DNA of 64,000 nt. It comes from Akkermansia muciniphila (GTDB lineage Bacteria > Verrucomicrobiota > Verrucomicrobiia > Opitutales > Opitutaceae). Below are positions 57,956 to 62,102 of the stretch, one piece after another (position 1 is the first letter of the stretch; each line of letters begins with the position of its first letter). The DNA lies in the NCBI GenBank assembly GCA_945888375.1, contig CAMCZZ010000004.1, positions 1 through 64,000 on the forward strand, written 5' to 3'. The notes below the pieces were generated by a model. That model had not been told where the DNA came from, did not search any database, and worked only from the letters and a program-made list of their open reading frames with translations. The translations under genes were made by a program, and so were the position numbers.

Positions 57956-59518
57956 TCAACCGGCGAGGTGGTGGCTAACCGCGTCGAGCAGCGCCTCCCA
58001 GGAGGCGTCGATGATGTTGTCACTCACGCCGACGGTGCCCCAGACGCGCGTGCCGTGGCCGCTCTCGATCAAGACGCGGGTGCGGGCGTTGGCGCCGTTG
58101 CGGCCGTCGAGGATGCGGACCTTGTAGTCGCGCAGCTCCATGTCGCGGATGCGCGGATAGGCGGGCTCAAGCGCGAGACGAAGAGCCTTGTCGAGCGCGC
58201 CCACGGGACCACTGCATTCGGCGACGGTGTGGCGGGCCTCGCCGTTTACGGTAAGTTTGACGGTGGCCTCGGCGACGAGACGCCCGGCCGGCCCGCGTTC
58301 GACGATCACGCGGTAGCTTTCAATCTCGAAGAAGTTTTTCGTCCGGCCGAGGGTTCGCGCAATCAGGAGGGCGAGCGAGGCGTCGGCGGCCTCGAACTCG
58401 TAGCCGCGGAACTCGAGGTCCTTCAGTTGCTCGATGAGCGATTTCATCTCGGGCGCCTTCTCGTCGAGTTCGAAGCCGAGCTCTTTGGCCTTCATCGCGA
58501 CCGAGCTGCGGCCGGCCATGTCAGAGACAAGCACGCGGGTGCGGTTGCCGACGAGGGCGGGATCGATGTGCTCGTAGGAGGACTTTACCTTCTGCGCGGC
58601 GTTGGCGTGGAGGCCGCCCTTGTGGGCGAAGGCGGAGGCGCCGACGTAGGGCGCTTTGGTGTCGGGCTTGAGGTTGGCAAGCTCGTCAAAAGTGAGGGAG
58701 AGCTCGCGCAGGCCGGCGAGGTTTTCCGCGCAACGGGCGGTCTTGCCCATCTTGAGGAACAAGCTCGGCAGGATGGTGAACAGGTTGGCGTTGCCGGTGC
58801 GCTCGCCGTAGCCGTTGGCCGTGCCCTGCACGAGGGTCGCGCCCGCCGCCACGCCAGCGAGCGAAAGCGCGACGCCGAGACCGGAGTCGTTGTGGGTATG
58901 CACGCCGACCTTATCCGGGCCAAACTCGGCCACGACCTTGGCGACGATGGCCTTAAAGTCATCGACGAGCGTGCCGCCGTTGGTGTCGCACAGGGTGAGG
59001 TTGCTGGCGCCGCCCTTGATCGCGGCGCGGAGGGTCTTGAGCGCATACTCCGGGTCGGCCTTGAAGCCGTCGAAGAAATGCTCGGCGTCGTAGACCACCT
59101 CGCGGCCCTGGGCCGTGACGTAGCGGATGGAGTCCTCGATCATGGCGAGATTTTCCTCGAGCGTGGTGCGGAGGATTTCCGTGACGTGGAGCGTCCAGGT
59201 TTTGCCTACGAGCGTGAGCACGGGCGTCTCGGCGGCGAGCAGGGTGGCGAGTTGAGGATCCTCGGCGGCGGTGATGCCCGCCCGGCGGGTGGAGCCGAAG
59301 GCGGCGAGTTTGGCGTGGGTGAACTTTAGTTTTTTAGCCTCGGCGAAAAACGTGATGTCCCGGGGATTGGAGCCGGGAAAGCCGCCCTCGATGTAGTCCA
59401 CCCCGAAGGCGTCGAGTTTTTGCGCGATCAGGAGCTTGTCCGTCACGGAGAAGCTGATGCCCTCCCCCTGCGTGCCATCGCGGAGAGTGGTGTCGTAGAT
59501 TTTAACGGCGTTGCTCAT
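57956..59518 (-). CDS. cimA: Citramalate synthase
   Basis: VKIYDTTLRDGTQGEGISFSVTDKLLIAQKLDAFGVDYIEGGFPGSNPRD, LCDTNGGTLVDDF, VGVHTHNDSGLGVA; ATG at 59518. Confidence 0.94.
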   Translation of the reverse strand: MSNAVKIYDTTLRDGTQGEGISFSVTDKLLIAQKLDAFGVDYIEGGFPGSNPRDITFFAEAKKLKFTHAKLAAFGSTRRAGITAAEDPQLATLLAAETPVLTLVGKTWTLHVTEILRTTLEENLAMIEDSIRYVTAQGREVVYDAEHFFDGFKADPEYALKTLRAAIKGGASNLTLCDTNGGTLVDDFKAIVAKVVAEFGPDKVGVHTHNDSGLGVALSLAGVAAGATLVQGTANGYGERTGNANLFTILPSLFLKMGKTARCAENLAGLRELSLTFDELANLKPDTKAPYVGASAFAHKGGLHANAAQKVKSSYEHIDPALVGNRTRVLVSDMAGRSSVAMKAKELGFELDEKAPEMKSLIEQLKDLEFRGYEFEAADASLALLIARTLGRTKNFFEIESYRVIVERGPAGRLVAEATVKLTVNGEARHTVAECSGPVGALDKALRLALEPAYPRIRDMELRDYKVRILDGRNGANARTRVLIESGHGTRVWGTVGVSDNIIDASWEALLDAVSHHLAG

Positions 59519-59596: not shown

Positions 59597-59628
59597 AAAA
59601 ACCCCGGGCGCTTTAGCCCCGGGGTTTT
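59597..59628 (-). terminator. Terminator-type hairpin upstream of cimA (attenuator candidate)
   Basis: Minus strand AAAACCCCGGGGCTAAAGCGCCCGGGGTTTTT: strong GC stem followed by a T run, about 80 nt before the cimA ATG. Confidence 0.8.
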
Positions 59629-59655
59629 CGAAAATCAGCGGCGTGCGTCGTGCAG

Positions 59656-59715
59656 TTACGCCAGGATTCCCGCCCCAGGAGGGCGGGTAATAATCAAAAA
59701 GTTGTGGATCCTCAC
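59656..59715 (-). promoter_or_regulatory. Putative leader peptide ORF (M)RIHNFLIITRPPGAGILA* upstream of cimA
   Basis: GTG AGG ATC CAC AAC TTT TTG ATT ATT ACC CGC CCT CCT GGG GCG GGA ATC CTG GCG TAA; upstream GGGGAG; overlaps hairpin CCCGCCC-N5-GGGCGGG (59669-59687). Confidence 0.6.
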
Positions 59716-59753
59716 GTGGTGCACTGCTCCCCAACGAAGCCTCGGCCTCGCGC

Positions 59754-62102
59754 TTGTCGAGGGCGTTTTCGCAGGGGCCGAGCGAGATTTGTGGCCCTCC
59801 TCCGCTTGCCAGCACGCTCCGGCTGGTCCCTTTATCGACTTTCGTGCCGCCTCCGCCCCCCAAGCCTCGTCCTGCCCCGTCCGTCGCCGCCGGGACCGCC
59901 AACACCCTGACCGGCGTGCTGGAGCGCATCGTTTTCCACAACGAAGAGAACCACTACACCATCGCCGAGTTCCGCCCCGACGAGGGCGACGAGCGCGTGA
60001 CCATCGTCGGGGCCCTGCCTGGCGTGCAATGCGGCGAGACCCTCCACCTCCACGGTTCCTGGGCCAGCCACGCCCAGCACGGCGCCCAATTCAAAATAGA
60101 ACGCTTCACCAGCGAACTGCCATCCAGCGTCTACGGTATCCGCAAATACCTCGGCTCCGGCCTCGTGCCCGGCGTGGGCAAGGTCTACGCCAACAAGATC
60201 GTCGACGCCTTCGGCACCGCTACCTTCCGCGTCCTTTCCGAGGAGTCTGCCCGCCTGCGTGACGTGCCCGGCATCGGCAAGGTCCGCGCCACCGCGATCA
60301 AAAAGGCCTGGGACGAGCAACGCGCCTTCCGCGAACTCTACATCTTTCTCCAAACCTACGGCGTCACCCCCGGCCAGTGCGTAAAGTTGATCGAGAAATA
60401 CGGCGCCGAGTCGCGCTCCATCCTGCAAAACCAGCCTTACCGCGTGGCCCGAGAAATCGACGGCATCGGCTTCAAGACCGCCGACCGCATCGCCATCAAT
60501 CTGGGGTTTGCCAACGACGCCCCACCCCGCCTCGACGCGGGCCTGCTCTACGCGCTGGAGACCCTTCAGGAGGAGGGCCACACCGCCTTGCGCGAGGCCG
60601 ACCTGCGGGACTACGCCGCCACCCTGCTGGAAGCTTCGGGGGAACGCATCAGTGCCCGCATCGCAGCCCTTGTGGCAGACAAAACCCTGTCGCTACACAC
60701 GCCCGCCGGCGTGGCCGAGCCCCTGCCCGGCTCCAGCCTCATCCAACTTCCCTTGCTTGATCGCGCCGAGCAAAAGATCGCCGACGCCGTCCACCGCCTG
60801 CGCCTGGTGCCGAGCGGACTACCGCCGATCAAACACGACGCCGCTCTGGTGTGGGCCGAGGAAAAGGCCGGGTTCACCTTCGCCCAGGCCCAGCGCGACG
60901 CCGTCCGCGCCTCGCTGCTCGCCAAGGTCTCCATCCTCACCGGCGGCCCCGGCACCGGCAAAACCTCCTGCCTGCGCGCCCTAGTCGAGATCCTGAAGGC
61001 CAAAAAAGTCCGCCTCGCCCTCGCCGCCCCCACCGGCCGCGCCGCCCAGCGCCTGACCGAGACCACCGGCGCTTTCGCCCAGACCCTGCACCGCCTGCTG
61101 AAGTTCAACCCCCAGCGCGGCGGCTTCGACGCCAACGAGGACGCGCCCCTCGCCACCGATTTCCTGGTCGTGGACGAGGCCTCCATGCTCGATACCCGCC
61201 TTGCCGCCGCCGTCTTCGCCGCCATGCCGTCGCGCGCCCACCTCCTGCTGGTGGGCGACACCGACCAGCTCCCGAGCGTCGGCGCCGGCAACGTGCTAAA
61301 GGATCTCATCGCGACCGAGACCGTGCCCGTCACCCGCCTGACCATCGTCCATCGCCAGCAGGGCCAGAGCGAGATCGTGACCACCGCCCACGCCATCAAC
61401 GCCGGCGAGCCCGCCCTGCCCATCGCGGTCGATTCCCTCGAAAAACTTCAGCCCTGGGCCGACCTCACCTTCGTGGTGGCGCGCGACGCCGACGATTGTC
61501 TCCAGAAAGTCGTGACGCTCTGCGCAGAGTTCATCCCGACCCACTTCCCGTGGATGAAGCCCGGCCGCGACATCCAGGTGCTCGCCCCGATGCACAAGGG
61601 CACGGCGGGCGTGGGCAACCTCAACCTCCGCCTCCAGGCCTCGCTCAATCCCCACGGCGCCGGCCTGCGCGCCCCCGGCGGCGAGTTCCGGGTCGGCGAC
61701 AAGCTCATCCAGCTGCGCAACAACTACGACAAGGGGCTCTTCAACGGCGACATCGGCGTGGTCGTGGCGGCCGACCCCGAGGCCGGCACGCTCGACGCCG
61801 AGTTCGACGGCACACGCCACGCCTTCACCCGGGGCGAACTGGGCGACCTCGCCTTGGCCTACGCCATCAGCATCCACAAGAGCCAGGGCAGCGAATACGC
61901 CGCCGTGGTCATCCCGCTGCTGAAGGCGCATTTCATGATGCTTCAGCGGAATCTGATCTACACCGCCATCACGCGCGGGAAAAAGAAGGTCTTCCTGGTC
62001 GGCGAACCCGCAGCCTACGCCATGGCCGTCCGCAACAACGAGGCCAAGACCCGCTCCACCCACCTAAAGGAAAAAATCCTCGCGGCTGGGACGAAAGCCT
62101 GA
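59754..62102 (+). CDS. RecD2-like ATP-dependent DNA helicase (SF1B); true start probably downstream of 59754
   Basis: Helix-hairpin-helix region ([14 protein letters not shown]), Walker [45 protein letters not shown]. Confidence 0.93.

Follow-up and report, generated by a model that had tools for sequence, protein, structure and literature searches.

A putative isoleucine-specific leader-peptide attenuator upstream of citramalate synthase in the Opitutaceae

The gap between cimA, which encodes citramalate synthase, and its divergent neighbor recD2 raises the question of whether translation of a short peptide controls transcription of cimA and, if it does, which amino acid is sensed. The window, meaning the whole stretch of 64,000 nucleotides that was analysed, comes from contig CAMCZZ010000004.1. 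An original prediction made from this DNA placed a leucine/isoleucine attenuator on the minus strand upstream of the gene. Based on comparisons with related genomes, it is very likely (probability about 0.9) that the leader attenuates transcription of cimA by a ribosome-mediated mechanism that responds specifically to isoleucine. This reading is drawn from sequence comparison, namely the in-frame isoleucine codons, the conserved spacings, the terminator, and the pairing and co-change of regions 2 and 3 (Table 1). Translation of the leader ORF, stalling of the ribosome and readthrough upon isoleucine starvation are inferred.

Layout of the leader and its proposed mechanism

On the minus strand, the leader consists of a -35-like box, a short ORF, a hairpin and a strong intrinsic terminator. 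It is bounded on its far side by recD2, which is encoded on the plus strand. The identification of the downstream gene as a citramalate synthase was correct, as the protein matches the TIGR00977 equivalog model with 694 bits, compared to a cut-off of 450. Likewise, the 19-codon frame with its stop (GTG 59715 to TAA 59656), the hairpin formed by CCCGCCC (59687-59681) with GGGGCGGG (59676-59669) and the T-run terminator were all found as described. Region 2 can pair either with region 1 through GGGGCGGG or with region 3 through TCCTGGGG. The C-terminal end of the peptide reads LIITRPPGAGILA followed by the stop codon, and the terminator lies downstream of it, between the leader ORF and the structural gene and about 80 nt 5' of cimA. 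A generic terminator scan did not detect the window terminator. The predicted fold of the leader has a free energy of -58.4 kcal/mol vs. -43.2 in shuffles (z = -4.1).

Table 1. Features of the cimA leader in the window.
Feature	Position	Strand	Basis
-35-like promoter element, TCGACA	59755..59760	-	TNGACA conservation among leaders
Leader peptide ORF in its probable complete form: 22 codons from GTG, VHHVRIHNFLIITRPPGAGILA, then TAA	59656..59724	-	Sequence; congeners
Leader ORF as originally predicted: downstream GTG, 19 codons plus stop TAA	59656..59715	-	Possible alternative start
Putative control codons ATT ATT, encoding Ile-Ile with the rare codon	59689..59694	-	II conserved, in frame only; ATT enriched
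Region 1, CCCGCCC, 5' arm of pause/anti-antiterminator hairpin	59681..59687	-	Sequence and fold
Region 2, TCCTGGGGCGGG, partner of region 1 or region 3	59669..59680	-	18-nt stop spacing; complementarity to region 3
Region 3, AAAACCCCGGGG, terminator 5' arm, alternative partner of region 2	59617..59628	-	Pairing tests
Region 4 and U-tract, CCCGGGG TTTTT, 3' arm of intrinsic terminator	59597..59608	-	3:4 helix conservation
Intrinsic terminator, AAAACCCCGGGG-CTAAAGCG-CCCGGGGTTTTT	59628-59597	-	Sequence
cimA, citramalate synthase, 520 aa, putatively regulated gene, ATG 59518	57956..59518	-	TIGR00977 equivalog

In the proposed mechanism, transcription would begin near the leader start codon, and RNA polymerase and the ribosome would advance together. 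With ample charged Ile-tRNA, the ribosome would pass ATT ATT and reach the stop codon, 18 nt beyond the start of region 2. There it would cover region 2, regions 3 and 4 would pair, and transcription would end before cimA. Under a shortage of charged Ile-tRNA, it would stall at ATT ATT and cover region 1. Region 2, left exposed, would then pair with region 3, which would keep the terminator from forming and allow transcription of cimA.

In 29 of 32 leaders, the motif TNGACA lies 36-51 nt 5' of the leader start, compared to a mean of 1.2 of 32 in mononucleotide shuffles, and the box is present in all 25 cimA leaders. No clear -10 box or consensus was found among the leaders examined for TNGACA. 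With ordinary sigma-70 spacing, transcription would begin no more than about 15 nt from the leader start codon, or at that codon itself. The sequence GGGGAG (59732-59727), which the original prediction placed before the GTG, would consequently coincide with the 5' end of the RNA or precede it. It is not conserved, lies 2 nt from GTG 59724 and is probably not a Shine-Dalgarno site. Its location and the lack of an evident Shine-Dalgarno-like sequence at this position in relatives suggest that translation of the peptide may begin on an almost leaderless transcript. Initiation also probably occurs nine bases upstream of the GTG first proposed, at the in-frame GTG 59724, which gives the length and start position seen in most congeners (e.g., VNRANIIDVSIITRPPGPGILA). 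A transcription start downstream of the terminator, which would speak against attenuation, is unlikely because the TNGACA box is conserved and the T-run nearly touches the start codon in some relatives. In two records, L062 (G030) and L224, the T-run continues straight into the ATG of cimA (CCCCGGGGTTTTTTTATG), an arrangement in which the start region could additionally be masked by the terminator stem.

Isoleucine codons, spacing and alternative pairing

The leader ORF carries clustered codons for an amino acid of its own pathway. In 20 related genomes for which both sequences were compared, isoleucine makes up 21.7% of leader codons but 3.9% of cimA codons, and the ATT:ATC ratio is 70:29 in the leaders and 28:359 in cimA. 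These genomes share ancestry, and the p-value of the Fisher test therefore exaggerates how independent the counts are. The preference for the rare codon ATT would suit a sensor. The sequence and length of the peptide vary (18 to 28 long), and II is conserved in 34 of 36 leaders, only in frame. When these 36 leaders were aligned, isoleucine codons accounted for 177 of 859 codons in frame vs. 11 of 1646 out of frame, which argues against an AT-rich unstructured linker.

The original prediction assigned control to leucine as well as isoleucine, and the ilv leaders of E. coli are multivalent. A multivalent branched-chain attenuator responding to leucine and isoleucine, and perhaps to valine, would fit the TTG codon that adjoins ATT ATT in the window. 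This reading deserves little credence, however, because leucine and valine make up only 4.0 and 3.6% of the residues in the 36 leaders, compared to 21.5% for isoleucine, and relatives carry TCG, ATT or CTG in place of the TTG. Leucine was rejected as a co-signal because it is neither enriched nor conserved, while the isoleucine part of the claim stands, at 22% of leader codons. Similarly, the ORF, the isoleucine codons and both hairpins are conserved in the genus and much of the family, whereas the leucine codon is not.

The spacing of these elements is also conserved. The distance from the first GGG of region 2 to the stop codon is 18 nt in 20 of 24 leaders, and the distance from the end of the isoleucine run to the same GGG is 12-15 nt in most. 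These spacings would place region 1 under a ribosome stalled at the isoleucine codons and region 2 inside the footprint of one that has reached the stop codon. The trp/his/ilv model places the stalled and stop-codon ribosomes in the same way.

Region 3 has two possible, mutually exclusive partners, region 4 in the terminator and region 2 in the antiterminator. By computation, the antiterminator excludes the terminator, and its partner segment lies near the control codons. The 3:4 helix is kept in 97.8% of cells, and three of its pairs show double changes (18 double-change cells vs. 4.0 in shuffles). A 2:3 helix of at least seven contiguous Watson-Crick pairs is possible in 27 of 36 leaders, compared to 1.3% of spacer 13-mers. 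When the leaders are divided by terminator type (CCCGGG and CCCTGAG), the 2:3 helix averages 6.6 and 7.4 bp with the group's own partner but 4.2 and 3.8 bp when the partners are swapped. In five genomes where the element precedes ilvA, regions 2, 3 and 4 have all been altered, from CCCGGG to CTCAGGG/CCCTGAG, and this joint change in the CCCTGAG group supports the switch. In the window, the 2:3 helix joins UCCUGGGG (59680-59673) to CCCCGGGG (59624-59617) over 8 bp that include two U-G pairs, the longest uninterrupted Watson-Crick stretch being only 4 bp. When region 1 is masked and region 4 is still absent from the RNA, folding predicts 2:3 pairing at 0.64 in the window and at a mean of 0.67 in 32 leaders. 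In the unoccluded leader, the 1:2 hairpin is predicted to be dominant in only some relatives (mean P 0.15). Thus, basal termination may be weak when the leader is not translated, with most of the effect perhaps coming from the ribosome at the stop codon. RNAalifold recovered the terminator only, because the 1:2 and 2:3 helices compete and are near-palindromic.

These observations also bear on the possibility that the gap between the divergent recD2 and cimA merely holds a constitutive terminator or a short RNA and that the ORF is a by-product. Such an explanation would account for a strong terminator so close to cimA and for the weak, sub-threshold sRNA matches in Rfam. It is very unlikely, since it predicts neither the in-frame-only isoleucine enrichment with its rare-codon bias nor the 18-nt stop spacing and the three-way co-change of regions 2, 3 and 4. 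Moreover, recD2 is divergent, so there is no other gene on the minus strand upstream that would need a terminator. Almost no weight can be given to direct sensing of isoleucine or tRNA-Ile by a riboswitch or T-box, which would explain a regulatory terminator and alternative structure before an isoleucine-synthesis gene, because the leader and its relatives match no Rfam family at threshold and the sequence drifts outside the arms and isoleucine codons, with no conserved aptamer core. Specifically, none of the leader families in Rfam 15 (ilvB-OMG, Leu, His, Thr and others) reaches its gathering score in the leader or its relatives, and the only amino acid leader match in the window is to His_leader, at 15.1 bits vs. 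a gathering score of 49. T-box membership was rejected, as no covariance-model match was obtained even at E<=10. Overall, the comparative evidence supports the attenuator originally proposed, apart from its leucine part and its ribosome-binding site.

Distribution at cimA and ilvA

The cimA upstream regions of 63 genomes, comprising the window genome and members of its genus, family and order, were compared. The cimA leader, defined as a short ORF with an isoleucine cluster followed by a CCCGGG-type terminator, is present in 25 of them, including all 14 genomes of the genus with a recoverable cimA. Examples of the peptides are VNRANIIDVSIITRPPGPGILA, MHATRRITASIITPPPGPGIRA, MTTTRIIADIIIIARQPGQDDAA and MTTAPAIIRAISSIIGCAPGRGEMA. 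In one congener, G001, the peptide MNSRRFAIAITLAVLHRGQEITA is degenerate and lacks II. An automatic rule requiring a short ORF with II and then a terminator accepted 25 of 123 real cimA upstream regions and none of 960 dinucleotide shuffles. A second set of 60 cimA upstream regions from the order, 54 of which came from other families, contained one carrier, G258, which belongs to the same family. The element also occurs in two further records (L224 and L226). Named relatives put the carriers in or near the Opitutaceae of the Verrucomicrobiota. Several members of the family have the element at neither cimA nor ilvA. When repeated loss and repeated gain of the cimA leader are weighed on a cimA tree, seven changes are needed, of which well-supported branches force only one, and either history may hold. 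In six records (L017, L018, L019, L022, L024 and L026), cimA has no leader; most share a CCCTTGCC box near the ATG that seems to be a short, leaderless promoter.

A covariance model was built from the 25 cimA leaders. In the window genome it yielded one strong full-length match, that in the window, the rest being terminator-only or weak. Elsewhere it gave full-length matches before ilvA, a threonine ammonia-lyase homologue named from sequence similarity, in G018, G048, G097, G017, G035, G020 and G082; the ilvA leader of G042 was recognised through inspection of ORFs. Examples of the ilvA leader peptides are MTSLNHIARAMIIGMMIIIRSQPGHGDVA and MNQRAIIIAAIIIRPHSGRRRMAV. By TIGR00977 and by similarity, respectively, the putatively regulated genes cimA and ilvA both belong to the isoleucine pathway. 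The cimA upstream regions of the eight genomes with an ilvA leader lack the element, as do the ilvA-like upstream regions scanned in genomes with a cimA leader. Thus, no genome among those examined carries it at both genes, an observation on a sample in which ilvA copies beyond the best one were only partly scanned. The window genome has no ilvA homologue at E<=1e-40, and the same is true of all congeners except one, which probably leaves cimA as the only route into isoleucine in these organisms. A broader proposal can be offered tentatively: a single Opitutaceae family of isoleucine attenuators would guard the carbon-committing gene of isoleucine synthesis, cimA or ilvA depending on the genus and never both, and may have moved between them, with its peptide perhaps made from a nearly leaderless transcript and its promoter very close.

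Relation to known systems and other candidate leaders

The element resembles the E. coli ilvGMEDA and ilvBN leaders (PMC10272879) in its short ORF with branched-chain codons, its U-tract terminator before a pathway gene and its alternative 1:2, 2:3 and 3:4 hairpins. In contrast, the window element involves isoleucine alone, precedes cimA (ilvA in other genera) and occurs in Verrucomicrobiota, and its peptide has no recognisable sequence homology except for that imposed by the hairpin. In the Corynebacterium ilvBNC leader and the ilvB-II motif, a branched-chain-rich uORF also controls an intrinsic terminator (PMC10272879, PMC11857589), but the gene, phylum and RNA are different, and the codons are branched-chain generally rather than isoleucine only. 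According to work cited in PMC10272879, the C. glutamicum leader peptide is reportedly formed without a ribosome-binding site. The ilvB-OMG and Leptospira ilvB motifs have been reinterpreted as branched-chain-rich uORF attenuators (PMC10272879); they are tied to ilvB, and the window has no match to them in Rfam 15. The attenuator peptide for branched-chain synthesis in S. aureus is likewise a leader-peptide system outside the Proteobacteria, although it is leucine-rich, from Bacillota and associated with another gene (PMC5794164).

A 2010 survey added Bacillota to the Proteobacteria and Actinobacteria, until then the only phyla with known leader-peptide systems (PMC2965389). Full-text literature searches found nothing relevant on leader-peptide attenuation in Verrucomicrobia/Opitutales, in a corpus mostly without subscription papers where absence is not proof, and the one paper found to combine citramalate synthase with leader-peptide attenuation appears to treat a different topic. 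While the mechanism is classical, the gene, the lineage and the placement at cimA or ilvA appear to be new. If the reading is true, Verrucomicrobiota would join the phyla with classical leader-peptide attenuation, and the citramalate route to isoleucine would gain a named regulator. The alternative placement would also provide a natural test of how switches arise or move within one pathway. The family can be searched for with a covariance model and could enter Rfam.

Other candidate leaders were seen in related and distant genomes. In family f21 of the same order (L059, L181, L183, L184, L185, L187, L188, L190 and L193), a different short ORF precedes cimA. It ends in RIS or IIS before the stop, at a conserved CGAATTAGCTGAGGGG(C/T)CGG-like motif, and has a GCTTGAC promoter-like box upstream and alternative GC-rich arms. 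No intrinsic terminator and no Rfam match were found in the f21 leaders, which are possibly a second, differently built isoleucine-responsive type. Upstream of cimA in L050 (G070) and L044 (G067), a common sequence, CGAATTCGGTAG, ends a short isoleucine-containing ORF and resembles the f21 motif. Within the same family as the window element, L096 (G240; 3136 bases) encodes the leader peptide MVLNHHHHHSS with a terminator hairpin and then a hisG-like gene after it, an arrangement that looks like a histidine attenuator. A search of the window genome for histidine runs of this hisG type gave eight matches, none resembling a leader followed by a terminator. Finally, in L273, a Desulfobacteria bacterium MAG, the short ORF MQPQAITSTVGIIAVVVGIIISLLPAGGLVMA and then a terminator occur about 210 nt upstream of cimA, a possible independent branched-chain attenuator at this gene.
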